Shown: positions 7,890-64,000 of the stretch, piece by piece
Numbering within the stretch: position 1 is the first letter of the stretch
Layout: every line of letters starts with the position of its first letter
Source of the DNA: Chrysiogenes arsenatis DSM 11915
GTDB taxonomy: Bacteria; Chrysiogenota; Chrysiogenetes; Chrysiogenales; Chrysiogenaceae
Assembly: GCF_000469585.1 (NCBI RefSeq)
Contig: NZ_AWNK01000005.1
Location: forward strand, 203,100 to 267,099
Direction: 5' to 3'
Length of the DNA: 64,000 bases
Program-made: the position numbers and the translations under genes
Notes under the pieces: generated by a model
What the model was told of the DNA's origin: nothing
The model's database searches: none
Seen by the model: the letters and a program-made list of their open reading frames with translations, nothing else

Positions 7890-7898
7890 TTGACTGCA

Positions 7899-8265: not shown

Positions 8266-8378
8266 CAGTGCTTATTCAAGCAATACTACAGGTACAATTA
8301 CTGCCGCGCTTTTCTTACAACACGTGCGTTGGCGGCGGTGATGACGAACCATTTTAATGAACTTTCGGGTGGTGCACT

Positions 8379-13073: not shown

Positions 13074-14771
13074 ATGAGACAGGATAAAAAAAAAGTTAGT
13101 AAAATTACGAGCAGCGAAAATGTGAAAGGGGTGAAGGTTACCCCGCTCGGCGGACTGGGAGAAATTGGCCTTAACCTCACTTGCTATGAAACCCGCCACA
13201 ATATGATTATTGTTGATTGCGGCCTGATGTTTCCGGAAGACACGCAGCTCGGTGTCGACATTGTCATTCCCGATATGAGTTATCTCGTCGCAAATATCAC
13301 CAAAGTGCAAGGGCTCTTCATTACCCACGGTCACGAAGATCACATCGGCGCCATCCCGTTTCTCGTCCGACACATTCCCGGACTGAAAATTTTTGGCACA
13401 AAACTCGTCATTGGATTCATTACTCACCGCTTGAAAGAACGTAATCTGGAAAATGCGGTTGAGTTAATTTGCGTCGCACCGGGAGATTGCGTCAGTGTCA
13501 ATGAATTTGACGTTGAATTTATCGGCGTGAATCACAGCATTGCCGATGCGTGTGCCTTAGCCATTTCGACGCCAAGTGGCGTGATTATTCACACCGGCGA
13601 CTTCAAGATCGACCATACGCCCGTTGACCATCAAGTGATCGACCTCGCGTCATTTGCCCGTTATGGCGACAACGGGGTGCTCGCTCTCTTTTCTGACTCG
13701 ACGAATGTGGAATCGGCTGGGTGCAGCCCGACGGAACGCGGCGTTGAAGCGGCACTGGACGATGAAATCAGTAAATGCAAAGGGAAAGTTGTCACCTCAA
13801 CATTCTCCTCAAATATCCACCGCATACAAACCCTGTTAAATATTGCCAAACGGCAAGGACGTAAGGTAGCCTTTGACGGACGCAGTATCGTTAACAACGC
13901 CCTTCTCGGGCGAGAGTTAGGCTACCTGACGTATAACGACGAAGATGTCGTCAGCATACGCGATGTGAAAGGGATGGCACCACAAAAGCTGCTGATTATC
14001 ACCACCGGCTCTCAAGGTGAACCGTATGCGGCATTGACCCGTATAGCGACAGATAACCACGCCAACATTAAGATTAAACAGGGCGATACGGTTATTTTCT
14101 CTTCAAAAACCATTCCAGGCAATGAGCGGAGTGTGTCGAAGCTGATCAATCAAATCTTCATGCGCGGAGCACGGGTTGTCTACGATAAGATGCGTATGGT
14201 TCACGCCTCTGGTCACGCCTACCAAGAAGAACTCAAAACCATGATCAATCTCGTTCGTCCGCACTACTTCATTCCCATTCATGGCGAATATCGTCACCTG
14301 CACCATCACGCTGAACTCGCAAAAGCGGTGGGAATTGCCGAGAACAACGTCTTTATCCTGCGTAACGGTCTGCCACTCCAATTTGACCAAACAGGAGCCA
14401 AGCTCCTTCCTGAAGTACAAAATGGCCGTGTCTTTATCGATGGTCGCGGCATGGAGGATGTTGAAGAGCCACTCCTGATGGATCGACGCTCCTTAGCCAG
14501 TGACGGCGTTGTCGTTGTTCATGTTGCCATTGGACAGCAGGATGGCGCGATTCTTGATGGCCCGCATATCATAACCTGCGGCTTTGAAATTGCCGCTCAT
14601 ATCCGCACCCAACTGGAGAAGGATGTATTGACATTCCTCCAAGAAGCGCCAACAGAAATGAAAGGGCAGTGGAATTTAATTAAACTAGAAGTGCGCAAAA
14701 CCCTGCGGCAATCGCTCAAAAAGCGAATTGACCGCAAGCCTATGGTCTTGCCAGTTATCGTGGAGATATAG
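13074..14771 (+). CDS. rnj: Ribonuclease J
   Basis: A 565-aa cytoplasmic ribonuclease with 5'-3' exo- and endonuclease activity in RNA maturation and decay. It is a beta-CASP metallo-beta-lactamase: the zinc motif HGHEDH is at residues 85-90, DxxH-type ligands follow (HTGDFKID), the beta-CASP domain carries TTGSQGEP, and a Met/Arg-rich helix leads to HGEYRHLHHH. The C-terminal domain is present, so the protein is full length. The annotated ATG is preceded by AAGGA at an unusually long distance (about 15 bp); no better in-frame start is seen. uppP begins 4 bp after its stop. Confidence 0.93.
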   Translation: MRQDKKKVSKITSSENVKGVKVTPLGGLGEIGLNLTCYETRHNMIIVDCGLMFPEDTQLGVDIVIPDMSYLVANITKVQGLFITHGHEDHIGAIPFLVRHIPGLKIFGTKLVIGFITHRLKERNLENAVELICVAPGDCVSVNEFDVEFIGVNHSIADACALAISTPSGVIIHTGDFKIDHTPVDHQVIDLASFARYGDNGVLALFSDSTNVESAGCSPTERGVEAALDDEISKCKGKVVTSTFSSNIHRIQTLLNIAKRQGRKVAFDGRSIVNNALLGRELGYLTYNDEDVVSIRDVKGMAPQKLLIITTGSQGEPYAALTRIATDNHANIKIKQGDTVIFSSKTIPGNERSVSKLINQIFMRGARVVYDKMRMVHASGHAYQEELKTMINLVRPHYFIPIHGEYRHLHHHAELAKAVGIAENNVFILRNGLPLQFDQTGAKLLPEVQNGRVFIDGRGMEDVEEPLLMDRRSLASDGVVVVHVAIGQQDGAILDGPHIITCGFEIAAHIRTQLEKDVLTFLQEAPTEMKGQWNLIKLEVRKTLRQSLKKRIDRKPMVLPVIVEI

Positions 14772-49191: not shown

Positions 49192-52100
49192 TTATCGCGC
49201 ACCGCCATACGTCATCCGGTATGCAATGGGAATCAAGAGCAAGCTAAACGCCGTTGACGCCGTAATGCCAAAGATAAACGCCCAGGCTAATCCCGAAAAA
49301 ATCGGATCGAGCACGATCACCCATGCGCCGAACATGGCCGCGAGTGCCGTGAGCAAAATCGGACGCATCCGCACTTGAGCGGCGTGGCGAATGGCGTTGT
49401 CGATATCGCCCCCCTCTTCCGTGCGGTATTTCTCCATAAAGTCAATCAGAATAATGCCGTTCCGCACCACAATACCTGCGAGCGCAATAATTCCAATAAA
49501 CGCCGTAGCGGTAAAAAAGACCGGCATGTGAATATCACCAATCTGCTGCCCGAACAAGATATTCAACAACCAGAATCCCGGCAGAATACCAACAAGGGTA
49601 AAAGGAATCGCAATAATCATAATGGCAGGCAACAGCAACACGCCTGTCTGCGCCACCAGCAAAACGTAAATACCCACTACGGCACCAAGGAACGCTAACC
49701 CCATATCGCGGAAAGCATCAACCGTGATTTTTGTTTCCCCTTCGCCCAACCAGTTGACTTCGTATCCCGCCGGAATCTTCCCTTCCAGCTCGCGGTTAAT
49801 CGCCAAAACGGCATCGACGGGACTAATACCAACCGACTCGGCAGTCACAAAGTAAACCTGCCGCATATCTTTCCGGTGGATGGGTGGCGTCACCTCGCTC
49901 TGGATGACACGCACAATCGAACCGAGTGGCACGCCGGGTTTAACCTGAATCCCCAGAGCTTTTTCCAGCGAACTCTGGTCGGGATCGCCAAGGCGCAGCA
50001 CAATCGGCAACGATTCCAGCTTGTGATCGACGTGAATCACCCCCACAGGCAGACCACGATGGATAAAAGAATCGGTAATCTGTGCCACAGTCGCGCTGGT
50101 GATTCCCGCTTCTGCCGCACGCAAACGGTCGATTTCCAGCACGATTTGCGGCTGCATCTCAGTCGAATAGTTGTCAATATCGGCCACGCCGGGCACCGCC
50201 GCAAAGGCGTTTTCGACGATTTGCCCAACCGCGGCAATATCGGCATAGGTGGCCGTCGGCGAGCCATACACTTCGGCAACCACACTGGCCATCACAGGTG
50301 GCCCCGGAGGCATTTCGACAATTTTCGAGCGGACACCATAGTGCGACGAAAGCCGTTCCACCTCACGGCGGATATCAAGGGCAATCGTATGCGACGCGAT
50401 CCGTTCCTGCTTCGGTGTCAAATTGAGGCGGATTTCCGCCATGTTGCTTGCGGAGCGCATATAGTATTTGCGCACCAAGCCGTTAAAGTCTATCGGACTA
50501 TTAACGCCCGCATATATCTGTGCCGAACGGACGTATTCGCGCTGCGTCAGCGCCGTCGCAATTGCGTTGGTGGCATTCCATGTCCGTTCCAGTGTAAAGG
50601 ACTCTGGTGCATCAATCACAATCAAAAGTTCGTTTTTATTGTCAAAGGGGAGCATTTTGAATGGCACTTTTCCAGTTGGAATCAGCAACACAGACGCCGC
50701 AAATGCGATCAGTGATCCGACAATGAGTCCCCAGCGACGTCCGGAAGATGCCAGGAAAAAATCCAGCGTGGCCACATATTTCCGTTCCATCCAGCCAGGC
50801 GCGTGATGCCCCGCAGTGGTTGCGGATTGGCCGCTCGTGACCGTGGCACTCGGTGTCTTTAACAGTCGCGCACACGCCCATGGTGTAATCGTGACGGCCA
50901 CCACCAACGACCAGAACATGGCGATGGGAATATTGACGGGCATTGGTCGCATGTAAGGCCCCATCATGCCAGTGACAAAGTAGAGCGGAATGAACGATAC
51001 CACCACGGCAATCGTCGCCACCAACGTCGGATTAAAAATTTCGGTGATCGCACCAACAATCGTTACCGTCTTTTGTTGCTGCGGGTAGAGCCCAAGATGG
51101 CGGCTGATGTTTTCGACGCCGACAATCGGATCGTCGACGAGCAAGCCCAGCGACAAGATGAGCGCAAACAACGTGACACGATTGATCGTAAAGCCCAGCA
51201 TATAATCGAGAATGAGCGTCAGAGCCAGCGTAATAGGAACGGCCATCGCCACAATCAGCGATTCGCGCCACCCCAGCGTAAAGGCGAGCAGCCCCACGAT
51301 GGTGGCAATAGCGATCAACAAATGCTTGACCAACTCATTAACTTTTTCATCCGCCGTTTCGCCGTAGTTGCGACTGACAATCACCTCCACGCCATCGGGA
51401 ATCACTTCGCCCCGCAGCCGCTCCATGGTGGCCAGTAATTCCTGGGCGACCGTCACCGCATTTGCGCCTTTCACTTTGGCGGCACTGATAGTCGCCATTT
51501 CGCGCACATCACCCGCTTCGACATGGTGAACGTACTGCGTCCGTGGGCTGAAACTCCGTTCGACCGTCGCAATATCACCCAAGCGGAACAGGTCGCCCCG
51601 TTGGTTGGGAATCGCAACGCTCGCGAGTTCGTCGATAGCTTCATAGCGATTGCCCACTTCGACGACTGCGTTGTTGCCACGGTAATCCATTGATCCCGCG
51701 CGAATATACACTCCACTGCCCGCAATCCAGTCGATAAGGTCGCCCAGACCCATTTGCATGCTACTGAGTTTGGCAATATCAATCGTGACGCGCACCTCTT
51801 CTGTGCGCCCACCCGTCACTTCCACTTTGGTGGCATGCGGGACGGCGTTCAAACGCAGTGCTGCCTCCTGCGCGATGAGGCGCAATTGGTCGGCGGTATA
51901 ACGCTCGCTAACCAGATTAAAAACAACGATGGGAACATCGTCGATCGAAACCGGCTTGACAATCCACCCCGTCACAATCGGCGGAACGGCATCGCGGTTG
52001 GAATCGAGTTCGTTGTAAAGGCGAATCAGCGCTTTTTCGAGATCGGTATCCACTTTATAACGAATGGTCACCATCGCCATTTCGGGCTGTGTAGCGGAAT

Positions 52101-52368
52101 AAATATGCTCCACATCCTGAATGCGCCGCAGTTTCTTTTCGAGCGGAATCGTCACCAAGCGCTCCATTTCAGCGACGGTCGCCCCCGGTGCCTGAATCAA
52201 AATATCCGCCATTGGAACAACAATTTGTGGCTCTTCTTCACGGGGCGTTGCCAAAAGCGCAATCGCACCACAAGCGAATGCTACCAAAATAAACAGGATC
52301 GAAAGTTTCGACACGACGAACTGGCGCACCGTCGCCGCCAGCCATCCGGTTTGGGTAGGAAGTGACAT
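49192..52368 (-). CDS. RND-family efflux pump, inner-membrane subunit
   Basis: A 1058-aa proton-driven exporter of the AcrB/HAE superfamily. The first span region and GATVAEMERLVTIPLEKKL open the porter domain; TM4 carries the proton-relay aspartates in LGLLVDDPIVGVENI. The second half repeats the pattern (FRDMGLAFLGAVVGIY, IIALAGIVVRNGIILIDF and RMRPILLTALAAMFG). Length is that of a complete pump. It lies 3 bp after an adaptor gene on the same strand and has GGAGGAG before its ATG. No outer-membrane TolC-type gene is adjacent. Substrate class (drug versus metal) cannot be fixed; the sequence looks more like the hydrophobe/cation-type RND group found in many environmental bacteria. Confidence 0.93.
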   Translation of the reverse strand: MSLPTQTGWLAATVRQFVVSKLSILFILVAFACGAIALLATPREEEPQIVVPMADILIQAPGATVAEMERLVTIPLEKKLRRIQDVEHIYSATQPEMAMVTIRYKVDTDLEKALIRLYNELDSNRDAVPPIVTGWIVKPVSIDDVPIVVFNLVSERYTADQLRLIAQEAALRLNAVPHATKVEVTGGRTEEVRVTIDIAKLSSMQMGLGDLIDWIAGSGVYIRAGSMDYRGNNAVVEVGNRYEAIDELASVAIPNQRGDLFRLGDIATVERSFSPRTQYVHHVEAGDVREMATISAAKVKGANAVTVAQELLATMERLRGEVIPDGVEVIVSRNYGETADEKVNELVKHLLIAIATIVGLLAFTLGWRESLIVAMAVPITLALTLILDYMLGFTINRVTLFALILSLGLLVDDPIVGVENISRHLGLYPQQQKTVTIVGAITEIFNPTLVATIAVVVSFIPLYFVTGMMGPYMRPMPVNIPIAMFWSLVVAVTITPWACARLLKTPSATVTSGQSATTAGHHAPGWMERKYVATLDFFLASSGRRWGLIVGSLIAFAASVLLIPTGKVPFKMLPFDNKNELLIVIDAPESFTLERTWNATNAIATALTQREYVRSAQIYAGVNSPIDFNGLVRKYYMRSASNMAEIRLNLTPKQERIASHTIALDIRREVERLSSHYGVRSKIVEMPPGPPVMASVVAEVYGSPTATYADIAAVGQIVENAFAAVPGVADIDNYSTEMQPQIVLEIDRLRAAEAGITSATVAQITDSFIHRGLPVGVIHVDHKLESLPIVLRLGDPDQSSLEKALGIQVKPGVPLGSIVRVIQSEVTPPIHRKDMRQVYFVTAESVGISPVDAVLAINRELEGKIPAGYEVNWLGEGETKITVDAFRDMGLAFLGAVVGIYVLLVAQTGVLLLPAIMIIAIPFTLVGILPGFWLLNILFGQQIGDIHMPVFFTATAFIGIIALAGIVVRNGIILIDFMEKYRTEEGGDIDNAIRHAAQVRMRPILLTALAAMFGAWVIVLDPIFSGLAWAFIFGITASTAFSLLLIPIAYRMTYGGAR

Positions 52369-52371
52369 GAC

Positions 52372-53343
52372 TTACTCCTCCGGGCGGATGACAACATCAC
52401 CCGCTTCTAAGCCGGAAAGCACCTGCACCATACCGTCATGCGTCATGCCCGTTTTGACGATACCGAGCGATGGAGCTTCGCCCCCAGCCAGATACACCCG
52501 CTGGAGCTGCCCCAAAGGGAAGAGAAAAGAAGCCGGAATCGCGGGTGAAAAAACGCGCCCCGCCACCACTTGTACCGTCACCACCATTCCTGGAATCAGT
52601 TCGCGGGGATTTTCTAATACCGCGCGCGCCGTGCGGGTGCCGTATTCAACATTGGGTGTCACCCCAACAACCGAACCGTAGGAAGCACCAATAGATACGG
52701 GCATCCCCGCTTCAATCCCAATATCCTGCGGATAGACAAACTCGACCACTAATGACCCGAGGGCGCGCATGTCGACGATAGCGCTGCCGGGCTGCAGCAG
52801 TTCACCCTGTTCAATGTAGCGCTTCCCGATGATCCCATCGAACGGCGCGCGTATCTGAGTGAATGTCTGTTGCTCCTGAGCTGAAGCCAACGCCGCACGA
52901 GCGGAAGAAAGCTGCCCTAATGCACTTTGATAGGTGGAGCGGGCATTATCTAACGAATGACGAGCGATGACGCCACCGCTGAACAGCGAATCAGCTCGCG
53001 CCAGATCAAGCCGTGCCTTTTCCACCTGAGCCTCCGCACTCCGTACCTGCCCTTCGGCACTGCGCACCGCTTCGCGCGGGAGCTTGTCATCAAGCTGCAC
53101 AAGCATATCGCCCTGCTTTTTTTGTGCCCCAAATTCGAGCGCAAACGATTCGACCCGCCCCGTCAGGCGATTGCGAATCGTCATGTCGGCCAGCGATTTC
53201 ACTTTGCCGGGATAGTACGCGTGCAGGGGAAATTCATGGAGAGTCACATCGAACGATTCCGTGGTATCAGCAGAAAAGGCCGTAAGCGGCGCAGTGACAG
53301 CGACAAAAAGGGCAACCAGCAGGGCACGAGTAAGAGAACACAT
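52372..53343 (-). CDS. RND efflux periplasmic adaptor (MFP/HlyD-like)
   Basis: A 323-aa periplasmic protein with a signal peptide (MCSLTRALLVALFVAVTAP, cleaved near FSAD). Order: beta-barrel and lipoyl half (GRVESFALEFGAQKKQGDML), alpha-helical hairpin (about 90-155, KARLDLARADSLF and SARAALASAQEQQT), lipoyl half with IRAPFDGIIGKRYIEQGELL, then the membrane-proximal domain. It links the pump to an outer-membrane channel. The start follows GGAGG. It is the first gene of the MFP-RND pair. Confidence 0.92.
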   Translation of the reverse strand: MCSLTRALLVALFVAVTAPLTAFSADTTESFDVTLHEFPLHAYYPGKVKSLADMTIRNRLTGRVESFALEFGAQKKQGDMLVQLDDKLPREAVRSAEGQVRSAEAQVEKARLDLARADSLFSGGVIARHSLDNARSTYQSALGQLSSARAALASAQEQQTFTQIRAPFDGIIGKRYIEQGELLQPGSAIVDMRALGSLVVEFVYPQDIGIEAGMPVSIGASYGSVVGVTPNVEYGTRTARAVLENPRELIPGMVVTVQVVAGRVFSPAIPASFLFPLGQLQRVYLAGGEAPSLGIVKTGMTHDGMVQVLSGLEAGDVVIRPEE

Positions 53344-53435: not shown

Positions 53436-54185
53436 TTAGCCGTGATGATGGTGCGGGATTTGATGCGGCACGAGCGAATGTGGCTTTTCCTGCCCATGCG
53501 CCTGCATCAGTTCGGCATTGCCCAGAATGGTGGCAGCGGCACCATCCGCCATAACTTTCCCGGCGTCGATCAAAACAACGCGAGGACACACTTCTAGGAT
53601 CAATTCCAGATCGTGCGAAGCGATCAACATGGCGTGTGGCGCGTGTTGCAAGAGACCAATCAGCTGACGGCGTGAACGCATATCCAGACTGGCGCTTGGT
53701 TCATCATAAAGCACGAGTTGCGGCTCCATCGCTAAGGCGCCCGCAATAGCAACCATCCGCTTTTGCCCTTCCGAAAGATGGTGCACCGCTTTCGCCGCGA
53801 GGTGAGCCGTACTGGTAATCTGTAACGCGCGCTCAACCCGTTGCCGCGCGGCTTCAGGTGCCAGACCCATGTTACTTGGACCAAATTCCACATCTTCCCA
53901 CACCGTTGGGCAGAAAAGCTGGTCATCCGAATGCTGAAAAATCAATGCGAGATCAGAGTTGAATTTTCCTGCCATCAGCGGTTTTCCCTGAAATTGCAGT
54001 ATTCCCTTTTGCGGTGCCAGCACACCGCTGGCCAGCAAGAAGAGCGTGCTCTTTCCTGCCCCATTCGGGCCGATGATACCGACTTTTTCCCCTTCGTGAA
54101 CAGTAAGGGAAAAATCGCCGACAGCATCAGGTGTATCGGGGTAGGAAAAGCTGACGTGGGAAAAGTGAAGGAGCGGATGTTTCAT
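53436..54185 (-). CDS. cbiO: ECF-type ABC transporter ATPase (CbiO-like)
   Basis: A 249-aa ATPase. Walker A GPNGAGKST, Q-loop IFQHSDDQLF, signature LSEGQKRMVAIAGALA, Walker B LVLYDEPSASLD and the switch His in LIASHDLELI are all present. The HSDDQLFCPTVWEDVEFGPSN stretch is split here but is characteristic of ECF/CbiO ATPases. The C-terminus ends in PHHHHG, a likely metal-binding tail. I chose the ATG at 54183-54185, 2 bp after cbiQ. By family it powers cobalt or nickel uptake with CbiQ and a CbiM-type substrate component, which is not in this window. Confidence 0.88.
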   Translation of the reverse strand: MKHPLLHFSHVSFSYPDTPDAVGDFSLTVHEGEKVGIIGPNGAGKSTLFLLASGVLAPQKGILQFQGKPLMAGKFNSDLALIFQHSDDQLFCPTVWEDVEFGPSNMGLAPEAARQRVERALQITSTAHLAAKAVHHLSEGQKRMVAIAGALAMEPQLVLYDEPSASLDMRSRRQLIGLLQHAPHAMLIASHDLELILEVCPRVVLIDAGKVMADGAAATILGNAELMQAHGQEKPHSLVPHQIPHHHHG

Positions 54186-54187
54186 AC

Positions 54188-54946
54188 TTATTGCCCTAAA
54201 AAGAATTGCAAGGCGGTAATACCCACACAACAAAAAGCTATAGCGCTTAACTCCTTCGAAAGAGCCAACGTTGACGTCCGCACATTGACCGGTTTCTGGG
54301 TCTCCAACGTGTAGCCGCGCAAAATCATTGCATGATATACCCGCTCTGAGCGCTCATAGCTGCGCAAGCACAGTGAACCCCACACCCACGCAAGCGTCTT
54401 GAGCGAACGCGGACGCATGATCGTTGTATGGTGCCCACGCAGACGAATAGCCGTATTCATCTGTTGACTATCACGTGCAATAACCGCCATATAACGCAAC
54501 ACCAGCCCCGCCATGTCCGCCATGACAACAGGCAACCCCAGCGAGCGCATCGCTTGAATCGTCTGGTGGATTGGCGTGGTGCCGAGGAAAGCCAGAATGA
54601 CAATCATAATCGCATAAAAGCGGAGCGTTATCAGCAGAGCCGCACTCAACCCCTCGCGATAGACTTCAAGCCCCAGAATGGAAACCAGTGGTGTGGTTCC
54701 GCCAGCAAAAGGGAGAAACAACACCATCGCAATAACCATAATCGAAGGGAGCTTTAAACGCTGCAAAAGGGTTTTTACAGTGACCTCTGCCATCCAAGCA
54801 CAGAGTGCCGCGAATCCAAGAAGAGCGGGAAGCAGTAGTATATTCGTAACAAAGGAAAAGGTGAACGCCAGACAAAACGCAGCCAGTACCTTATTGCGTG
54901 GATGCCAGTGGTGAAGGGCGAAAATATGCGGTGGAGTCTGGCTCAT
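54188..54946 (-). CDS. cbiQ: ECF transporter transmembrane subunit (CbiQ-like)
   Basis: A 252-aa protein with about five spans. The two coupling-helix motifs of the T component are visible, AMRSLGLP and AMILRGY. N-terminal HHWHPRNKVLAAF is the family's usual start. I chose the ATG at 54944-54946; GAGG lies about 12 bp upstream, and a GTG 20 codons earlier is a possible alternative. It starts 68 bp after the ketosynthase-like gene and runs into cbiO. It could belong to the transcription unit of the ketosynthase genes without being functionally related. Confidence 0.86.
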   Translation of the reverse strand: MSQTPPHIFALHHWHPRNKVLAAFCLAFTFSFVTNILLLPALLGFAALCAWMAEVTVKTLLQRLKLPSIMVIAMVLFLPFAGGTTPLVSILGLEVYREGLSAALLITLRFYAIMIVILAFLGTTPIHQTIQAMRSLGLPVVMADMAGLVLRYMAVIARDSQQMNTAIRLRGHHTTIMRPRSLKTLAWVWGSLCLRSYERSERVYHAMILRGYTLETQKPVNVRTSTLALSKELSAIAFCCVGITALQFFLGQ

Positions 54947-55014
54947 GAGTGTTACATTCCTCGCAATACATAAAAATATTGGCCGACAGCAAGGAAGCGC
55001 TCGCACAGCAAGCC

Positions 55015-56055
55015 CTAGCGATTCACCGTTATCAATGCCCCCTGCTTTTGCGCATCAAACTTCAAACAATGAATCTTGTCAACACCTTCTATTGTATCTC
55101 CACCATTACCCGCTAATTCGCCTAGCAAGGCCGATGGATAAAAGTATCTACGGCTAAGACTTACGAGCGCTGCCGTCATATCAAACGCCTGAGCAGTCGG
55201 AAAACTCCCATAACAATGAGTGTAAGACGCTATTAAATCGGCTTTTATATCGTAACACATCCGTTCGCACCACGCATGCCCATCGCGCCCGACAATCAGT
55301 GGAACGCATGAAAGTTCTTCCGTCAGCGGCGCTTTCCCGAACCGCACTTCTTTTACAAACCCATGCTGAGCACTCTCACCGTTTGTCAGGAGATAAAAAG
55401 CCGTCCCTTCACCGGGATAGGTATACGTTGGCAGCTTTGAGCATGGGTCACCAAGATCAAAATACCGTTGCCAGCAGTAGCCCAGCTCGGGACAGAACTC
55501 ATCAACACTGCCGACTAACACGGCGTCAACAACGCCTTGCGCAAGCCACTCTTGTGCCGTACGCAAAGCAACCGCAAAGCTCATTTCAAACTGGCTGACA
55601 CTGAGGTTTGGGCCGTGAATCTGGTGCAGGATGCTAATATTTGCTGCCGCCGCATTGTGTACTGAGTAGGAAAAATGCGTGGGCGAAGTGAATTTATCGC
55701 CACCTTTAAGATAGGAATCAAGAAAGGCGAACGTGGTGCCCATTGGGCCATAGCCACTGGCGATAATTAGGCCAATACGGCTTCTATCAGAAGGAACCAT
55801 GGTGCCTGCATCTTCCAGTGCCAGACTCGCACCGAGTAGAGCGAGTTGCGAAAAATGATCGACTCGTCGCAAGCTCCGGCGCGGGAAAAATTTTTCCAGC
55901 GGCTCAAGGCTCACCAAAGCAGCCGGAATATCGCGCCCATAAGCCATAACGGTTTGCGCTACGGGCTCCCTTTTTTGCAGAGCCGTTTCCAGCGCGTCTA
56001 ACCCGCATCCAAAGCCACCAGCGATTCCAATGCCTTGTATCGCGCACCCCATCAC
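55015..56055 (-). CDS. Ketosynthase-like protein without catalytic Cys (chain-length-factor type)
   Basis: A 346-aa thiolase-fold protein resembling the KS-beta/chain length factor class. Recognisable parts: LGASLALEDAG, RIGLIIASGYGPMGTT, SPTHFSYSVHNAAAANI and GNGGDTIEGV. The nucleophilic Cys of KSs (NACSSG in the neighbour) is replaced: the aligned segment is LSVSQFEMSFAVAL, with Glu157 in that place. The HGTGT motif is also missing; a His remains in THCYG. It should therefore be a non-condensing partner of the KS encoded just upstream (4-bp overlap). It lies 68 bp before cbiQ. Confidence 0.75.
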   Translation of the reverse strand: MMGCAIQGIGIAGGFGCGLDALETALQKREPVAQTVMAYGRDIPAALVSLEPLEKFFPRRSLRRVDHFSQLALLGASLALEDAGTMVPSDRSRIGLIIASGYGPMGTTFAFLDSYLKGGDKFTSPTHFSYSVHNAAAANISILHQIHGPNLSVSQFEMSFAVALRTAQEWLAQGVVDAVLVGSVDEFCPELGYCWQRYFDLGDPCSKLPTYTYPGEGTAFYLLTNGESAQHGFVKEVRFGKAPLTEELSCVPLIVGRDGHAWCERMCYDIKADLIASYTHCYGSFPTAQAFDMTAALVSLSRRYFYPSALLGELAGNGGDTIEGVDKIHCLKFDAQKQGALITVNR

Positions 56056-57236
56056 GCTTCTCCTTTACGAAAAATAACGACCGTATTATTGCCACCAAAG
56101 GCCAGCGATTGCGAGAGGGCATACTCGCCGGAAATTTCCCTTGGCTGCGCAATCGGATGACACGGAAATGTCGGATCAGGGTCGCTCCAGCCACAGCTCG
56201 CAGGGATTGCACCACGATTGAGGCAAGCAATGGTGAGTGCGGCTTCAATAGCTCCCGCGGCGCCCAACGTGTGTCCCGTCATCCCTTTCGTGGAAAAAAA
56301 TGGCACATCTGGAAGTTGTTCGGCAAGGACACGCGTTTCCACACGATCATTATCTGGAGTGCCCGTACCGTGAGCATTGACAAAAGAAATTTGCGAAGCG
56401 TTTAATGAGGCCTGTTGTAGGGCTACCGCAAGCGCTTGTTTTAGCCCACGCCCTTCTGGATGCGGCGCTGTCAGGTGATGCGCATCGCACGCTGAGCCAT
56501 ATCCTGCCAGAAAGCCATGCAGCGTGGCACCACGCCGCCGAGCCAGCGACTCGGATTCCAGCATCACCATAGCCGCTCCTTCGCCCAAATTCAGCCCTTT
56601 GCGATTCGCATCAAACGGCATTACCGGCAAATCAGCGGTTATCATCAAGGAAATAAAACCATTATAGGTGACGCGACTCAACTCATCCGCACCACCCGCC
56701 AGCACCACATCGCATAAGCCTGAACGGAGCCAGCTTGCTCCCACGCCGATAGCATCTGCTCCGGAAGAACACGCATTGACAATGGTTTGACAAGGGCCAC
56801 TCAGCCCCAACTCGCGTGCCACCACCTGTGCGGGGTTGCTCCGCAGAAACCGATCAATCGCAGACATAGAAGGATGGCCGCTTTCCAAGAGTTGCTGATA
56901 GAACTCTTCGCTGTTCATGGCACTGCCAACTGTTGTGCCAATACATACGCCGACGCGCAAACCTTTGAGGTCGTCCAAAGCCCAGCCGCTACTCATAACC
57001 GCTTCCGTGGCGCTGTGCAATGCCAGCGCCGCCGTACGCAAATAGTAGTCGCCTTGCGGTGGTGTAAAATCAACTTCAAAAACTGGATACGGCGTCAAGT
57101 GCTCCGTACGAAAAAGGCTTGGTGGAGCGGGAAGGATGCGATCACCAAATAGCGTTTCGGCGCACTGCGCCATGGTATTACCCAAAGAACAGATACACCC
57201 CATGGCCGTAATAACAACGCGAGAGGGCTCTTTCAT
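56052..57236 (-). CDS. Beta-ketoacyl-ACP synthase (FabF-like), intact active site
   Basis: A 394-aa condensing enzyme that extends an acyl-ACP by decarboxylative condensation with malonyl-ACP. The catalytic triad is complete: Cys156 in NACSSGA, His289 in NAHGTGTP and His322 in GHTLGAAGA. MPFDANRKGLNLGEGAAMV is the usual FabF loop. Length is slightly below FabF (410). It overlaps the ACP gene upstream and the Cys-less KS-like gene downstream by 4 bp each. It is not next to fabD, fabG or plsX, which argues for a dedicated rather than housekeeping function. Confidence 0.92.
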   Translation of the reverse strand: MKEPSRVVITAMGCICSLGNTMAQCAETLFGDRILPAPPSLFRTEHLTPYPVFEVDFTPPQGDYYLRTAALALHSATEAVMSSGWALDDLKGLRVGVCIGTTVGSAMNSEEFYQQLLESGHPSMSAIDRFLRSNPAQVVARELGLSGPCQTIVNACSSGADAIGVGASWLRSGLCDVVLAGGADELSRVTYNGFISLMITADLPVMPFDANRKGLNLGEGAAMVMLESESLARRRGATLHGFLAGYGSACDAHHLTAPHPEGRGLKQALAVALQQASLNASQISFVNAHGTGTPDNDRVETRVLAEQLPDVPFFSTKGMTGHTLGAAGAIEAALTIACLNRGAIPASCGWSDPDPTFPCHPIAQPREISGEYALSQSLAFGGNNTVVIFRKGEA

Positions 57237-57487
57237 TGCGCCTGCTTTGACTCAATAAAGGCGGCTAAGCTTGCGACTGATTGCAGCGCCGGGCGACCTT
57301 CTTCCATATCCTTGATTTCTACCCCAAAATGTTTCTGTACCAAGACGACGAGCTCGACCGCATCTAAAGAATCAAGCCCTAAGCCTTCACCGAAAAGGGG
57401 CATATCGTCCTGAATATCTTCCGGAGTAAAATCTTCGAGGTTTAAGTCACGAATAAGGACTTCTTTGATTTTTTCTTTGATGCTCAT
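57233..57487 (-). CDS. Acyl carrier protein, first copy
   Basis: An 84-aa ACP. The phosphopantetheine Ser is Ser40 in GLGLDSLDAVEL, followed by VQKHFGVEI, the typical helix II-III region. The ATG at 57485-57487 follows AAAAGGAG; a longer frame upstream adds eight residues. It is the first gene of ACP-KS-KS-like and its stop overlaps the KS start. It is less like the housekeeping AcpP (no DxEIxDEDAE region) and more like ACPs of specialised KS clusters. Confidence 0.9.
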   Translation of the reverse strand: MSIKEKIKEVLIRDLNLEDFTPEDIQDDMPLFGEGLGLDSLDAVELVVLVQKHFGVEIKDMEEGRPALQSVASLAAFIESKQAQ

Positions 57488-57558
57488 GCTTACTCCTTTT
57501 ACTCTCAACAAATATCGTGATTTCTAAGTGCCAACTGTCTGTGTACGCTCATTACCGG

Positions 57559-57587
57559 TTGCTCTCAAACGGCAGAAACCATATCAT
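57559..57587 (+). promoter_or_regulatory. Possible promoter of the BtrH/ABC operon
   Basis: TTGCTC (57559-57564, 3 of 6), 17 bp, TATCAT (57582-57587, 5 of 6), in the divergent region between the ACP gene (minus) and the plus-strand operon. The preferred start codon is about 50 bp downstream of the predicted start. Confidence 0.42.
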
Positions 57588-57644
57588 AGTTGCGAAAAAC
57601 ATGCGGTGATAATGTTTGAATTTTTCGGAGGAGTTTTCCCTTTC

Positions 57645-58073
57645 ATGATCGAATCTGAAGTACCCCAGCACGATGCCCTTTTTGGGCAATGGCGGGAAAT
57701 TATGTATGCCTTAAACGCTCAAGGGGAATACGTCCTTGTCCCCTCGGCAGGCTGGGATCCCGCGAACTTTGCCAATGCCCAAGCGTGGGAAGCCGTTGCA
57801 GAACGCATCGAAGCCGCACTTCAGGCAGTACAGCAGCAAAAAAGCAGCGTCCTTGCTTATCACATGGCGTGCAACCAAATGGATGTTGCGCTCCTTGCCA
57901 GCTACAGCGGATTTTCCCGCTGGCGCGTTCGCTGGCATTTGCGCCCTAACGTCTGGAAGTCCTTAAATGCTCAAATAAAGGGACGCTATGCTGCCCTTTT
58001 TCGCATGACACCTGAAGCGCTGGAACAACTCCCACACAAACCAACACCCAGTACCGGTCGGCACCATGAATAA
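57645..58073 (+). CDS. Conserved-looking 142-aa protein of the acyl cluster, function unknown
   Basis: A 142-aa soluble protein with no recognised family. It has a Trp-rich core (GQWREIM, GWDPANFANAQAWEAVAE, FSRWRVRWHLRPNVWKSL) and is predicted mostly helical, with a His/Pro-rich end. I prefer the ATG at 57645, 12 bp after GGAGGAG; an ATG at 57612 in the same frame is the alternative and would add 11 residues. It overlaps the BtrH-like gene by 8 bp, so it is the first gene of the plus-strand operon and is probably part of the same system. The C-terminal RWRVRWH..P and R..AL stretches could bind an acidic partner such as an ACP; that is speculation. Confidence 0.65.
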   Translation: MIESEVPQHDALFGQWREIMYALNAQGEYVLVPSAGWDPANFANAQAWEAVAERIEAALQAVQQQKSSVLAYHMACNQMDVALLASYSGFSRWRVRWHLRPNVWKSLNAQIKGRYAALFRMTPEALEQLPHKPTPSTGRHHE

Positions 58074-59082
58074 ACCCGTAACCGAAATTCCTTTCGTTCA
58101 TCGGCATGCGGCTCATTGCGAAAGTGGCGTGAGCGCCAATCTCTTTGCTTATGGTGGCTTTCCTATTTCGGAGGCGATGGCTTTTGGCATTGGCGGTGGA
58201 CTGTTTTTTGCCTACCTTCCGTTTATCCGCATCGACCATCTGCCGCTCGTTACCTTTCGCAAAGAGCCGGGCGGCATTCTGCGCCAAGCTGCCAAACGCC
58301 TTGGAATGTCGGTGCAGTCACAACATTTTCGCACCCCAGAAAAAGCATCACAGGCTTTAGATACTTTACTGGAACAGGGAATACCCGTGGGACTGCAAAC
58401 CGGCGTCTACTGGCTTCCATATTTTCCTCCGGCGCTGCGTTTCCATTTTAATGCTCACAATCTGGTGGTGTATGGGCGGCAAGGCGACGACTACCTGATT
58501 AGCGACCCAGTGTTGGATCAACCCGTGATCTGCCATCGGCACGATTTGGAACGGGCGCGCTTTGCCCGTGGCGCGTTGGCACCAAAAGGAAGGATGTACT
58601 GGATTCCCTCCTATCCGCAAACGATTAACCTCCCCAGTGCCATTCGTGAGGGGATTCGCGAAGTCGCTAACCGCATGACACGCCCTTTTCTGCCAATTGC
58701 TGGAACGCGCGGGATCCGCTTCTTGGCGTACCGACTGGAAAAATGGCCTGAGCGACTGGGCGAAAAGAGCGCCCGCCGTCATCTCGGCCATCTCATCCGC
58801 ATGCAAGAAGAGATCGGCACTGGTGGCGGGGGCTTCCGTTTTATCTACGCGGCATTCTTATGCGAATCCGCTTCTATTCTTGAACGGACTGACTTGGAGC
58901 GCTTATCCGATGACCTCACGCTGATTGGTGACCGCTGGCGCGACCTAGCCGTACTGGGGACAAAACTCTGCAAAGGGCGTGCAGAAGCAGGGGCAACTTG
59001 GCATGAACTCGGTGATTTGCTCCGTGAATGCGCGGATCGTGAACAAGTCCTCTTTACCGCACTGCGAAGACTCACGCTATGA
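58066..59082 (+). CDS. BtrH-like acyltransferase with DUF4872 C-terminal region
   Basis: A 338-aa protein. Residues 10-150 resemble the BtrH N-terminal domain, a papain-like fold: Cys18 in AHCESGVSANLF, His131 in FNAHNLVVYG and Asp147 in YLISDPV give a plausible Cys-His-Asp triad. The remaining 190 residues match the DUF4872 region that often follows. BtrH of butirosin synthesis moves an acyl group from an ACP to an amino acceptor, so acyl transfer from one of the two ACPs here is a reasonable inference. The gene overlaps the 142-aa ORF by 8 bp and the ABC ATPase by 4 bp. Confidence 0.75.
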   Translation: MNKPVTEIPFVHRHAAHCESGVSANLFAYGGFPISEAMAFGIGGGLFFAYLPFIRIDHLPLVTFRKEPGGILRQAAKRLGMSVQSQHFRTPEKASQALDTLLEQGIPVGLQTGVYWLPYFPPALRFHFNAHNLVVYGRQGDDYLISDPVLDQPVICHRHDLERARFARGALAPKGRMYWIPSYPQTINLPSAIREGIREVANRMTRPFLPIAGTRGIRFLAYRLEKWPERLGEKSARRHLGHLIRMQEEIGTGGGGFRFIYAAFLCESASILERTDLERLSDDLTLIGDRWRDLAVLGTKLCKGRAEAGATWHELGDLLRECADREQVLFTALRRLTL

Positions 59083-59840
59083 GTGCGGCTCGCCGTGGTA
59101 CGGTGCGTGTTTCAGAGGTCGCATTCCGTTATCCCAACACCCCATTACCCGTCCTAAACGGCCTAAATTTTGAAATTGCTGCGGGCGAAATTTTCGGCAT
59201 TCTTGGGCCAAACGGTGCCGGTAAAACAACGTTGCTCTCGCTGCTGTGCACCCTTCGCCTCCCGCAACACGGCGTGGTGGAAGTCGCTGGGTATGATGCC
59301 AGGCGCGATGCACCGCTCATTCGACCGCACATTGGCTACGTGCCGCAGGATATCGCCCTTTATCCAAACCTTACCATTCTGGAAAATATGCATTACTTTG
59401 GCACCCTCGCTGGTGTGCCGACCAAATCACTGCCGCAGCGTATTGCTGCCGCGCTTCAGGCCGTTGGTTTAGAAGAGCCACAGCATCGCCTTGTCCGGAA
59501 TTGCTCTGGCGGCATGAAGCGACGGGCGAATATTGCCGTAAGTTTGCTGCATCAGCCAGCGATTTTGATTCTTGATGAACCAACCGTCGGGGTCGACCCA
59601 CAATCGCGCGCCCTTATTCTGCACTCGCTGGCAAAGCTCGGAGAGCAAGGGACAACTATTTTGTACACCACGCATTACATGGAAGAAGCGCAACAACTCT
59701 GTCAGCGGGTAATGATTATGGATCACGGTAAAAGCATTGCGTGCGGCTCACCCGAAGCGCTCATCCGTGAGCACAACGGTGCTACAAGTCTTGAAGACGT
59801 TTTCCTACAACGAACCGGTCGTGGATTACGGGAGGCATAG
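59079..59840 (+). CDS. ABC transporter ATPase (ABC-2 type exporter)
   Basis: A 253-aa ATPase with Walker A GPNGAGKTT, signature CSGGMKRRANIAVSL, Walker B ILILDEPTVGVDP and the switch His in TTHYMEEAQQL. The close match to drug/polysaccharide exporter ATPases (DrrA/NodI type) and the partner permease indicate export. It overlaps the BtrH-like gene by 4 bp and the permease start by 1 bp, so all are co-translated. Confidence 0.93.
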   Translation: MSAARRGTVRVSEVAFRYPNTPLPVLNGLNFEIAAGEIFGILGPNGAGKTTLLSLLCTLRLPQHGVVEVAGYDARRDAPLIRPHIGYVPQDIALYPNLTILENMHYFGTLAGVPTKSLPQRIAAALQAVGLEEPQHRLVRNCSGGMKRRANIAVSLLHQPAILILDEPTVGVDPQSRALILHSLAKLGEQGTTILYTTHYMEEAQQLCQRVMIMDHGKSIACGSPEALIREHNGATSLEDVFLQRTGRGLREA

Positions 59841-61105
59841 TGGCACCATTCTGGGCGACGTTTTACAAAGAGTTTCTGCTGCTGCGCCGTGATCGTGCGG
59901 GTCTACTCACCCTGTTTGTGATGCCAACGGTTTTGGTAATCATTGTGGCTCTCGTGCAAAACAACATCCTTGAAAGCAGCGGGAGTGAGGGTCTGAAAAT
60001 TGCGTATCTCGATCAAGACCTTGATCTTCAAGAAAACACTCTTGGCAGCCGCATCCGGCAGGAATTGCAAAATGCTGGATTGGAGCTGGTTGCTCCTTTG
60101 CAAAACGACGTCGCAACGTTGCGGCAACACGTTGCGACTGGCCAATATCCGTTGGGAGTGGTCATTCCTGCTGGAATCAGCGCCAAGCTGCGGGATCAGG
60201 CACGCCTTAGTGCTAGGGCGCTTTTTGATGGCAATGTGTCAGCGCAGGAAGTTGCCGTACCGCTGAGCGTGGAACTCTATTTCGACCCTACCGTACAGGG
60301 AGCACTCCGTTCGTCGATCGTCAATGCGCTGCGACTTGCTACGTTTGCTGTGGAAACGGAATACCGCTGGGATGCACTGGCGCAGTTATGGCAACAGCAG
60401 AACTTGCAGATGCTCCCCGCAACGCTTAACCCGCAGCCAACCCTCCGCGTTGTCGAACACACCTCCAGTGTTGCGGCAAAAAACATCCCACCCACCGCCG
60501 TGCAGCATAACGTCCCCGCGTGGGCGCTCTTCGGCATGTTTTTCAGCGCGTTGCCACTCGCAGGAACACTTTTGAATGAACGCCAAAACGGCACACTCCA
60601 ACGGCTCCGCACCTTTGCGCTTTCGCCATTGTGGTTGTTGAGTGGTAAAATCGCAGCGTATTTTGCGGTTTGTCTTTTGCAGTTTGGCATCATTCTTTTG
60701 GTCGGCACGTTGCTTTTACCTCTGCTGGGAACCCCAGCATTGGAAATCACCGGAAATAAAGCAGCCATTGTAGCACTGGTGGCTTGTGCCGCCTTAGCCG
60801 CGACTGGCTTTGGCATTCTACTTGGTACGTTTGCCACCACGTATGAACAGGTTTCGACTGTGGGATCGGTCACTATTGTCATCGCCGCTGCCCTCGGAGG
60901 CATTATGGTGCCAACCTTTATGATGCCGGAAGCCATGCAGACACTCAGCCAGTTTTCTCCCCTTGCGTGGGGACTCGATGGATTTATGCACCTATTCGTG
61001 CGTGGGGGATCGTGGAGCGACATTGCGCTGAATGGCATATCGCTGCTGGCATTTTTTGTGATTGCACTTGGCTTGTCGTGGTTGCATTCAGCACAACGAA
61101 AATAA
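59840..61105 (+). CDS. ABC-2 type transporter permease
   Basis: A 421-aa protein with the ABC-2 layout: one N-terminal span (LLTLFVMPTVLVIIVALV), a large extracytoplasmic domain of about 200 residues (45-240), then five spans from ALFGMFFSALPLAGTLLNE to the C-terminus (including GGIMVPTFMMPEAM and SPLAWGLDGFMHLF). This is the YhfK/YbhS-like arrangement. It starts at GTG 59840, sharing a base with the ATPase stop. It probably exports the product of the cluster; the compound is unknown. Confidence 0.9.
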   Translation: MAPFWATFYKEFLLLRRDRAGLLTLFVMPTVLVIIVALVQNNILESSGSEGLKIAYLDQDLDLQENTLGSRIRQELQNAGLELVAPLQNDVATLRQHVATGQYPLGVVIPAGISAKLRDQARLSARALFDGNVSAQEVAVPLSVELYFDPTVQGALRSSIVNALRLATFAVETEYRWDALAQLWQQQNLQMLPATLNPQPTLRVVEHTSSVAAKNIPPTAVQHNVPAWALFGMFFSALPLAGTLLNERQNGTLQRLRTFALSPLWLLSGKIAAYFAVCLLQFGIILLVGTLLLPLLGTPALEITGNKAAIVALVACAALAATGFGILLGTFATTYEQVSTVGSVTIVIAAALGGIMVPTFMMPEAMQTLSQFSPLAWGLDGFMHLFVRGGSWSDIALNGISLLAFFVIALGLSWLHSAQRK

Positions 61106-61133
61106 AAAATCACGCTTTTGAAAGGAAAAAATA

Positions 61134-61397
61134 ATGACCGATTTTGCACTGGAACAAGAACTAGCGGCAAAGATTATCGAAATGTGCCACGTCTTCGAAC
61201 CGCCAGCCACGATAAACTACGACAAACCACTGATCGGACCCGAATCAATATTTGGCCTTGATTCACTCGACGCCGTCGAAGTGCTTGTCAGCGTGCAACG
61301 CGATTATGGAGTGCGTATCACGCAAGAAGAGGCACGCGACGCCCTCCGTTCACTGCATGTGCTGGCGGAATACATACGATCAAATCGACCCGAATAG
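61134..61397 (+). CDS. Acyl carrier protein, second copy
   Basis: An 87-aa ACP with Ser44 in FGLDSLDAVEVLVSVQ as phosphopantetheine site; VSVQRDYGVRI follows as helix II-III. It is only distantly similar to the first ACP outside the motif, and its N-terminus is longer (MTDFALEQELAAKIIEM). GAAAGG lies 8 bp before the ATG. It is the last gene of the plus-strand operon, 28 bp after the permease. Two distinct ACPs suggest separate starter/extender or carrier/delivery roles. Confidence 0.9.
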   Translation: MTDFALEQELAAKIIEMCHVFEPPATINYDKPLIGPESIFGLDSLDAVEVLVSVQRDYGVRITQEEARDALRSLHVLAEYIRSNRPE

Positions 61398-61432: not shown

Positions 61433-62602
61433 TCATTGACTTGGCAGTTCCGTGCCACGGCTCATGATCTTGATATAGTCGGCATAGCTGAATACACGGT
61501 TGCGTTTTTGAGCCGTTAATTCCTTCACAATGCCAAGATGCCCCAAATGGCTTAGCGCCTTATTGACGGTCGCTGGCGTGAGGCCAGTCTTTTTCACCAA
61601 CGAAACTGAAGTGGCAATAGGGTGCTCGATGAGTGCTTGGTACACACACAAAGTCGATGGCGTTGCCCGTCCAAGCCCCTTGACTTTCTCACGATCTTGA
61701 CTTGACAGGTCGAGAAGCTGCTGCGCCGTTTCGACCGCCTGAGTGGCGGTGACAATAACCGCCTCGGCAAAGAAATCAAGCCACGCCTCCCAGTCGCCCA
61801 CCAAACGTACATTATTGAGCAACTCATAGTAGTATTGACGGTGCGCTTTGAAATAAAGGCTGAGATACAGCATCGGCTCCCGCAACACCTTCTGCTCGCA
61901 CAGCAAAAGCGTTATAAGCAAACGCCCCAGACGGCCATTGCCATCCAGAAATGGGTGAATCGTCTCGAACTGCACATGGGCAAGCGCCGCTTTAAGCAGC
62001 ACAGGCGTCGGTTCCGGCTGATCATGCAGAAAAAGCTCCAGCTTGCCCATACACTCCAGCACTTCATGCGCTGGAGGCGGAACAAAGGCGGCATTGCCAG
62101 GCCGTGTGCCACCGATCCAGTTTTGACTGCGCCGAAACTCACCCGGTGTCAGACCGCTCCCGCGCCCTTTCGCTAAAAGTACACCGTGAATCTCGCGGAG
62201 CAGCCGGAGCGAAAGCGGTAATCCTTTTTCCAGTAATCCCAGACCGTGCTCAAGAGCAGCAACATAGTTGCTGACCTCGCGCACATCGTCGAGCGGAACA
62301 CCCGGTTCCTGATCTAACTCAAAAAGCAACAAGTCTGATAGCGACGACTGTGTCCCTTCTATCATCGAAGAAAGCACCGCTTCTTTGCGAACGTACATGT
62401 AAATAAAGAGCGAAGTATCTGGCAACAATGCTGAAACACTATCCAAGCGCCCAAGCGATAGCAACGCTTGATCGAACTTGTTGCGTAGCTCAGGTGTCCA
62501 GTTTATAGGCGGACATGGTGGCAGCGGTGCCGGCACAAAAGCCTGCGCTTTCTCGCCAACAGTCGATATGGTCACATACTTCCCTTGGAGTTTCCGCTTC
62601 AT
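61433..62602 (-). CDS. Fic-domain protein (AMP-transferase type) with winged-helix tail
   Basis: A 389-aa protein. The catalytic motif HPFLDGNGRLGR (residues 216-227) is complete, so AMPylation or a related nucleotidyl transfer is possible. An inhibitory helix with the (S/T)xxxE(G/N) pattern is visible as S78-SMI-E82-G83 at the N-terminal side, i.e. class II autoinhibition. The last 80 residues look like a winged helix (SVSLVKKTGLTPATVNKALSHL), suggesting DNA binding and autoregulation. It is convergent with the ACP operon, 35 bp apart. An AT-rich region lies upstream. No antitoxin-like neighbour is seen. Confidence 0.9.
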   Translation of the reverse strand: MKRKLQGKYVTISTVGEKAQAFVPAPLPPCPPINWTPELRNKFDQALLSLGRLDSVSALLPDTSLFIYMYVRKEAVLSSMIEGTQSSLSDLLLFELDQEPGVPLDDVREVSNYVAALEHGLGLLEKGLPLSLRLLREIHGVLLAKGRGSGLTPGEFRRSQNWIGGTRPGNAAFVPPPAHEVLECMGKLELFLHDQPEPTPVLLKAALAHVQFETIHPFLDGNGRLGRLLITLLLCEQKVLREPMLYLSLYFKAHRQYYYELLNNVRLVGDWEAWLDFFAEAVIVTATQAVETAQQLLDLSSQDREKVKGLGRATPSTLCVYQALIEHPIATSVSLVKKTGLTPATVNKALSHLGHLGIVKELTAQKRNRVFSYADYIKIMSRGTELPSQ

Positions 62603-63910: not shown

Positions 63911-64000
63911 AATCCCTCCTTCGAAATTTGCGACACAATACCAATTCTTGCCAATCTACGCTACGGTAAGTTGCATATAGCACATGGAGAATCTCCCGCT

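Follow-up and report, generated by a model that had tools for sequence, protein, structure and literature searches.

A likely dialkylresorcinol arm of a split flexirubin-like aryl-polyene-ester cluster in Chrysiogenes arsenatis, with a B12-radical-SAM gene in the place of DarA

Aryl-polyene ester pigments combine a polyene with a dialkylresorcinol (DAR). The darB and darA genes yield DAR, and flexirubin is lost in a darB mutant (PMC3992019); CHDs are intermediates of the DAR pathway (PMC4414361), and an ester bond joins the polyene to the DAR (PMC3949708). Among the closest described systems is that of Azoarcus sp. BH72, where the dar and arc genes specify arcuflavin, a xanthomonadin-dialkylresorcinol hybrid (PMC3949708). 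Beside darA and darB, its DAR arm encodes a hypothetical protein (darD), a BtrH-like protein (darE), an ATPase (darF), a permease (darI), an acyl carrier protein (ACP, darC) and a ketosynthase (KS, darJ), the same set that is found in C. arsenatis (PMC3949708 Table 1). As in C. arsenatis, this arm is split from the polyene genes and a toxin-antitoxin pair lies inside the locus (PMC3949708). The NCBIfam names DarG and DarH, which we use throughout, correspond to Azoarcus darD and darE, not to Azoarcus darG and darH.

The locus lies near the end of the window, that is, the whole stretch of 64,000 nucleotides analyzed here. The initial annotation described eight genes as a compact divergent cluster, and a check of open reading frames located all eight with the coordinates, strands and order that it gave. 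These genes and their neighbors are as follows.

55015..56055, minus strand: KS-like protein without the active-site Cys (N-domain of PF00109 only)
56052..57236, minus strand: intact beta-ketoacyl-ACP synthase (PF00109 and PF02801; position of Azoarcus darJ)
57233..57487, minus strand: acyl carrier protein (PF00550; PRK09184, 73.9 bits, cut-off 70; position of Azoarcus darC)
57645..58073, plus strand: DarG-family protein, 142 aa (NF053536 DarG_fam, 128 bits, cut-off 70)
58066..59082, plus strand: DarH, BtrH-type carrier-protein-dependent acyltransferase (NF053550 DarH, 458 bits, cut-off 300)
59079..59840, plus strand: ABC-2 exporter ATPase (PF00005, 116.6 bits; position of Azoarcus darF)
59840..61105, plus strand: ABC-2 exporter permease (PF12698, 120 bits; position of Azoarcus darI; conserved neighbor)
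61134..61397, plus strand: second acyl carrier protein (PF00550, 27.0 bits, cut-off 20.8)
61433..62602, minus strand: Fic/DOC-family gene (PF02661 and PF13784), between the two halves of the putative pigment locus
63956..64000, minus strand: 3' end of a DarB/StlD-type ketosynthase gene (full gene C3:267055-268212, 385 aa)
C3:268227-269699, outside the window: DarB-linked B12-radical-SAM gene, after the DarB gene

The minus-strand trio is joined by a 4-bp overlap at each junction; on the plus strand, the 142-aa frame overlaps the BtrH-like gene by 8 bp, the latter overlaps the ATPase gene by 4 bp, and the ATPase gene overlaps the permease gene by 1 bp, followed by a 28-bp gap before the second ACP gene. 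All the domains claimed by the initial annotation scored above the Pfam gathering cut-offs, except that no Pfam family was recognized in the 142-aa protein. The KS is intact as proposed, with its C156/H289/K317/H322 set invariant across 62 sequences, and its best NCBIfam match, PRK09185, falls below cut-off. Its KS-like neighbor indeed lacks the active-site Cys, and the His as well, in the alignment; it is a predicted chain-length-factor (CLF)-like partner of the adjoining KS, with a syntenic homolog (43%) in Geothermobacter. Both ACPs retain the GLDSLD serine. The phosphopantetheine Ser of the minus-strand ACP is invariant in 70 sequences, and Geothermobacter and Desulfobulbus each have a homolog of the second ACP at the corresponding position. 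Scans for promoters and terminators gave chance-level results only, and no repeats were found flanking the module.

In the 52 related loci whose flanks reach 7.5 kb or more on both sides of DarH, DarG, a KS and an ACP each occur in 51 and the two ABC genes together in 50, with the ATPase gene conserved directly 3' of DarH. The association of the eight genes is far from chance, and the neighborhoods of related loci bear out the idea of a system that recurs across unrelated phyla. With DarG_fam and DarH both above cut-off and the order conserved, the locus contains the DarG-DarH-ABC-ABC-ACP-KS module. Its 142-aa protein, initially considered unknown, thus has a family, DarG.

At the end of the window, 2.6 kb from the eight genes, stands DarB. 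It matches the StlD/DarB model NF005293 at 568 bits (cut-off 450), its best PDB match is StlD (5gk0, 437 bits), and C128/H305/N334/N340 are invariant in 67 sequences. The noted absence of a ketoreductase (KR), dehydratases and the like is accurate for the window but not for the contig, where an aryl-polyene set lies 15-28 kb past the eight genes: KR, two dehydratases, KS-CLF, an aromatic amino acid lyase, a ligase, MMPL and LolA. The content is ape-like, with a KS and CLF-like partner, KR, dehydratases, ACP, acyltransferase, LolA and an MMPL exporter; the FabA-like match exceeds its cut-off (30.4 against 23), and the ApeI and ApeP Pfam models fall slightly short (27.2 against 28.5 and 23.5 against 27). 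Similarly, no phosphopantetheinyl transferase is encoded at the locus, as initially stated, but two genes elsewhere in the genome (contigs C5 and C7) could serve.

Comparison with other genomes places the two halves together. The Flavobacterium and Chitinophaga flexirubin loci all contain DarB-DarG-DarH-ABC-ABC with ACP-KS-CLF, the Flavobacterium locus further holding TAL, KR, KS, ACP, TE and LolA; the C. arsenatis DarH shares only 46-53% identity with theirs. In Geothermobacter (L070), Desulfobulbus (L083) and Desulfosarcina (L080), the DarG-DarH-ABC-ABC module accompanies DarB and a linked radical SAM gene, with neither the split nor the Fic or MqsRA insertions of C. arsenatis, and we found no paper describing these loci. 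Geothermobacter carries nearly the same gene set in a single contiguous, collinear supercluster, with no Fic gene in the corresponding place; this cluster has no lyase and no FlxY, which counts against the overall reading proposed below. The Fic/DOC gene of C. arsenatis is probably not a member of the pigment locus.

Because of the Geothermobacter supercluster, the Flavobacterium and Chitinophaga loci and the Azoarcus dar cluster, the eight genes very likely represent the resorcinol-type arm of a split flexirubin/arcuflavin-like aryl-polyene-ester cluster. On this view they form the half of a known type of pigment cluster that makes the headgroup and handles joining and export. The whole cluster here would span about 34 kb (window position 55015 to C3:292545), with an inversion having rearranged it and Fic and MqsRA genes having entered as insertions. 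The initial annotation had contrasted the genes with aryl-polyene and flexirubin clusters, and had named a reductive gene set nearby in relatives as evidence against its own reading; a full reductive set is there in relatives, and in the C. arsenatis genome too. The cluster is not canonical flexirubin, because the narrower DarB 'exception' model (463 bits, cut-off 550), NF053545 flexirubin_DarG (120, cut-off 170) and the FlxA (480, cut-off 700), FlxB (300, cut-off 340) and FlxY (419, cut-off 520) equivalogs all score below cut-off. FlxA, FlxB, FlxY and DarG are nonetheless homologous to their flexirubin counterparts. The polyene starter differs from that of Azoarcus, which uses 3-hydroxybenzoate made via chorismatase (PMC3949708), whereas C. 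arsenatis has the lyase and an FlxY-like ligase.

In the pathway that we propose, an aryl polyene would be built on a carrier protein by the lyase, the FlxY-like ligase, KS-CLF, KR, the two dehydratases and ACP, while the KS, CLF-like protein and ACP of the eight-gene locus would supply acyl chains, two of which DarB/StlD would join head-to-head into a 2,5-dialkyl-cyclohexane-1,3-dione. DarA, which usually aromatizes this intermediate to dialkylresorcinol, is missing, and the B12-radical-SAM enzyme adjoining DarB would act on the ring instead. DarH, via Cys18/His131/Asp147, would then transfer the polyenoyl group from its carrier protein to a ring hydroxyl as an ester. The ABC-2 exporter would act together with MMPL and LolA to move this product to the envelope. 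For C. arsenatis we infer all of these steps from sequence, including the roles of DarH and the ABC proteins and, above all, the radical-SAM step; work by others on relatives covers the DarB ring step (heterologous expression of DarAB and a darB mutant) and the ester linkage. With the exact chemistry of the radical-SAM ring step set aside, we have good confidence in the explanation as a whole.

DarH consists of BtrH_N (PF14399, 162.9 bits, cut-off 29.7) and DUF4872, which confirms the BtrH-like assignment, and C18, H131 and D147 are invariant in 82 sequences. A sequence search against the PDB gave no match; a fold search with the AF2 model (pLDDT 92) identified AziU3/U2, CtaG and CcbD as the closest folds, matched over the whole length at only 10-17% identity. 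AziU3, CtaG and CcbD are BtrH-like condensing enzymes that depend on a carrier protein. The spacing of the DarH triad is equivalent to that of C11/H128/D144 in CtaG, for which mutants are named in PDB titles. CcbD and CtaG are amide-forming, in contrast to the ester formation proposed for DarH, which we consider the fairly probable activity: transfer of the polyene from the carrier protein onto the ring. The suggested sequence of building, loading, transfer and export is probably right for DarH and the ABC-2 exporter.

The new part is the missing DarA with a B12-radical-SAM gene in its place, the reverse of Azoarcus, whose published table lists darA but no radical SAM gene (PMC3949708). Profile A2 detected no DarA anywhere in the C. 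arsenatis genome, whereas two flexirubin genomes and another genome (G383) gave 427-477 bits. Among 68 DarB-bearing loci, DarA is present without a linked radical SAM gene in 54, an adjoining B12-radical-SAM gene is present without DarA in 13 (from 12 genomes, mostly Desulfobacterota), and no locus has both. In the flexirubin loci with DarB, DarA adjoins in all but one short contig and a linked radical SAM gene in none. C. arsenatis follows the radical-SAM pattern, and the relatives that share it are mostly anaerobic. The DarB-linked subfamily is distinct: two DarB genomes score 762 and 720 bits, and none of the others among 385 exceeds 324 bits. Two points count against the overall reading. 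The division coincides with one branch (100/100) separating Bacteroidota from mainly Desulfobacterota, and is therefore a single evolutionary event; and five related loci (L071, L074, L075, L076 and L103) have DarH and fairly long flanks with no DarB nearby.

The mutual exclusion tentatively suggests that the radical SAM enzyme stands in for DarA as an aromatase. An alternative that may equally hold is that it is a C-methyltransferase, so that the product would be a methylated cyclohexanedione or its polyene enol ester, with no aromatization. Most characterized B12-radical-SAM enzymes are methyltransferases; the nearest NCBIfam model is HpnR, a hopanoid C-3 methylase, for which 169 bits fall well short of the cut-off of 650, and the methyltransferases TsrM and TokK are among the nearest solved relatives, although the non-methylating AprD4 and OxsB are similarly near. 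A DarB without DarA need not have a replacement, because plasmids of Prevotella and Bacteroides (plasmid collection) carry DarB-like ketosynthase genes with neither DarA nor a radical SAM gene alongside. Against methylation, the exclusion of DarA is strict at the same DarB-side position, for which replacement is simpler than an added methylation. In the open-licence literature we found no report that connects a radical SAM enzyme with dialkylresorcinol biosynthesis; two matches were set aside because, going by their titles and abstracts, they concern cyanobacterial alkylation.

A ladderane- or polyunsaturated-hydrocarbon-type lipid cluster, with the Dar-like genes as accessories, is unlikely. 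Such a role was proposed for similar clusters in Kuenenia and Desulfotalea that combine FASII, radical-SAM and phytoene-desaturase genes; K. stuttgartiensis, D. psychrophila, Geobacter and Pelobacter were all reported to have clusters of this kind (Rattray 2009, PMC2649909). In common with C. arsenatis, the Kuenenia and Desulfotalea clusters contain FASII paralogs, radical SAM enzymes, phytoene-desaturase-like proteins, a phenylacetyl-CoA-ligase-like protein and a glycosyltransferase; the available text describes no DAR arm, leaves the product unsolved and reports no ladderanes from D. psychrophila, which has a similar cluster (PMC2649909). The C. arsenatis cluster does contain a TIGR04072 rSAM_ladder_B12 match (620.8 bits, cut-off 360), two further B12 proteins and a CrtI-like oxidoreductase, and ladderane-type radical SAM genes are what it has in addition to the Azoarcus set. 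However, the CrtI-type matches are weak, and the lyase, FlxY-like ligase, LolA, MMPL, DarB, DarG and DarH indicate an aryl-polyene ester. We also rejected celluxanthene, an arylpolyene that anaerobes make with an iterative type I PKS and for which no resorcinol or radical SAM genes are mentioned.

We reject as highly improbable the original proposal of a stand-alone, undescribed system making and exporting a short beta-keto acyl product with help from fatty-acid synthase, which drew on the compactness of the eight genes and the lack of reductive genes within the window, given the proximity of DarB, the polyene set on the same contig, the single Geothermobacter supercluster and the dar cluster with a matching gene set published in 2014 (PMC3949708).

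Under the aryl-polyene ester reading, what had been an unknown acyl system becomes a specific pathway open to testing, and flexirubin/arcuflavin-type chemistry would reach beyond Bacteroidota and Proteobacteria to Desulfobacterota and a small phylum. The DAR pathway gains a candidate ring-finishing enzyme independent of DarA. Radical-SAM genes long filed as ladderane would be linked to aryl-polyene ester pigments, altering the reading of many anaerobe clusters. It is conceivable, and we put it forward with reserve, that in anaerobes DarA has been replaced by a distinct B12-radical-SAM subfamily with new radical chemistry on the ring, and that many 'ladderane' clusters are aryl-polyene ester pigment clusters.

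The AF2 model of DarG (pLDDT 87) yielded no match below E 0.001 in the fold search; its C-terminal part is weakly HTH-like, and the likeness to HppE and SinR serves as a lead only.

The eight divergent ORFs at window positions 55015-61397 (minus strand: an ACP, a ketosynthase (KS) and a KS-like protein; plus strand: a 142-aa protein, a BtrH-like protein, an ABC ATPase, a permease and a second ACP) belong to an aryl-polyene/dialkylresorcinol (DAR) ester pigment cluster, a kind already known. Positions, strands, overlaps and a 28-bp gap are all as initially annotated, and Pfam confirmed the domains; the start of the minus-operon ACP is best set at 57487, and about 157 bp (57488-57644) separate the operons. 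Alignment bore out that the KS is intact, with its catalytic residues present, and that the KS-like protein lacks the active-site Cys; its His is absent too. The 142-aa protein, previously considered unknown, falls in the DarG family (NCBIfam, 128 bits, cut-off 70), and the BtrH-like protein is DarH (458 bits, cut-off 300), both of them dialkylresorcinol/flexirubin proteins by their NCBIfam names. The surrounding features are as follows.

Window 49192-53343: RND-type efflux pump (1058 aa) and membrane-fusion-like partner, upstream of the ORFs, from translation only
Window 53436-55006: CbiO/CbiQ cobalt ECF transporter genes, ending just ahead of the ORFs
Window 61433-62602: Fic/DOC gene, between the halves of the pigment locus
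Contig 267055-268212: DarB/StlD-family ketosynthase, of which only the 3' end falls inside the window (its final 45 bp)
Contig 269679-270376: MqsR/MqsA toxin-antitoxin pair, between the halves
Contig 271,630-292,545, minus strand: polyene-half genes

The polyene half came to light through a ketosynthase search of the whole genome, which found further ketosynthases on this contig; positions 264000-310000 were retrieved for annotation. Its order is lipid-A-like acyltransferase, GT2, two B12-radical-SAM proteins (one TIGR04072, 620 bits, cut-off 360), B12-binding protein, CLF-like protein, KS, thioesterase, dehydratase, MMPL, LolA, second dehydratase, aromatic amino acid lyase, FlxY-like ligase, acyltransferase, ACP, KS, CrtI-like oxidoreductase, KS and KR. 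The reported absence of KR and dehydratase is thus true only within the window, as both lie beyond it on the same contig. Two phosphopantetheinyl transferases are encoded elsewhere in the genome. At contig 273705-277812 (9706-13813 of L013, the stretch fetched from 264000) three B12-binding proteins stand in a row. Two are radical SAM proteins. The last of the three (12509-13813) carries a B12 domain, gives no clear radical-SAM match in Pfam and shares 74% identity with its Geothermobacter homologue.

A DarH alignment scanned against 84,980 species genomes returned at least 538 related places, of which the best 80 were retained. Of the loci, 52 extend at least 7.5 kb to either side of DarH; DarG occurs in 51 of these, the pair of ABC genes in 50, KS in 51, ACP in 51 and DarB in all 52 at a loose threshold, a stricter criterion excluding at least L116, a locus of Bacteroidales MAG12. 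Geothermobacter hydrogeniphilus has everything but the lyase and FlxY in one uninterrupted stretch (KR-KS-CrtI-KS-ACP-AT-DH-LolA-MMPL-DH-TE-KS-CLF-B12-rSAM-rSAM-GT2-acyltransferase-ACP-KS-CLF-DarG-DarH-ABC-ABC-ACP), and DarB with its radical SAM gene follows the last ACP on the opposite strand; the window's genome, in contrast, has the DAR block inverted and set apart by the Fic and MqsRA genes. Loci of the flexirubin-producing genera Chitinophaga (C. filiformis, C. pinensis) and Flavobacterium share the module, as does the published dar cluster of Azoarcus BH72 (PMC3949708, Table 1), which likewise holds a toxin-antitoxin-like pair (PMC3949708). Given the DarG, DarH and DarB identities, the polyene half and the Azoarcus cluster, the initial proposal of an undescribed stand-alone system does not hold.

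What sets this cluster apart is that DarA, the flavodoxin-like aromatase, is absent and that B12-radical-SAM enzymes of two sorts, DarB-linked and ladderane-type, are present; no description of such a variant was found in the open-licence papers searched. Its DarB scores 568 bits against the family model (cut-off 450) and 437 bits against the solved StlD structure, with Cys128, His305 and Asn334/Asn340 invariant across 67 homologues. DarA stands beside DarB in 54 loci, none with the B12-radical-SAM gene (rSAM); in 13 loci, from 12 distinct genomes (L066 and L085 share a contig), rSAM directly adjoins DarB without DarA; and one short contig with DarB has neither. No DarB locus has both. The DarA profile found no match in the window's genome, Geothermobacter, Desulfobulbus rhabdoformis, Desulfosarcina cetonica and four others, and matched weakly in four rSAM-type genomes (three at 66-77 bits, one at 21); true DarA scores 427-477 bits. 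CX3CX2C is kept in 13/13 aligned rSAM sequences. In a search of 385 genomes, the two DarB genomes without DarA scored 762 and 720 bits and the remainder at most 324, delineating the DarB-linked rSAM, by sequence score, as a sharply separate subfamily. A single branch (support 100/100) divides the two types in the DarB tree; since this split largely coincides with that between phyla, it counts as one event.

C. pinensis DarA and DarB yield dialkylresorcinol in a heterologous host, and an F. johnsoniae darB mutant lacks flexirubin (PMC3992019); in flexirubins an ester bond joins a polyene to a resorcinol, a structure proposed for arcuflavin as well (PMC3949708). The predicted fold of DarH (pLDDT 92, high confidence) resembles AziU3/U2, CtaG and CcbD, the last solved together with its carrier protein, and Cys18/His131/Asp147 match CtaG C11/H128/D144 in spacing. 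DarH would transfer the polyenoyl chain from its ACP to the ring hydroxyl, and the ABC-2 pair would export or flip the ester. C-methylation by rSAM is a close rival to replacement of DarA. B12-radical-SAM relatives of solved structure that methylate (TsrM, TokK) and ones that do not (AprD4, OxsB) lie at broadly similar distances from rSAM. We prefer the reading that rSAM stands in for DarA. The several B12 enzymes of the locus would fit with a nearby supply of cobalt, but the CbiO/CbiQ adjacency may be coincidence.

L116 lacks DarB; in the position of DarA-DarB, close to DarG-DarH-ABC, it carries a TIGR04072-like radical SAM gene (7767-9149, 35% identity). Another DarH (37%) in this locus adjoins an ACP, and L116 is possibly a third variant. 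On plasmids of Prevotella nigrescens (L166) and Bacteroides ovatus (L168), genes for DarB-like ketosynthases stand alone: a regulator-like gene precedes each, and neither DarA nor the radical SAM gene lies nearby.

Among 51 genomes of this small phylum, DarH and an above-cut-off TIGR04072 protein are confined to the window's genome (2.83 Mb, 22 contigs). The nearest relatives of its DarH, among the best 80 of at least 538 places, are mostly Desulfobacterota, which suggests horizontal transfer. The same genome holds a separate type I PKS-like locus on another contig (C7, 52902-92594). Three large ORFs (2150-2647 aa) there contain ketosynthase domains, and a gene with a PPTase domain lies close by.
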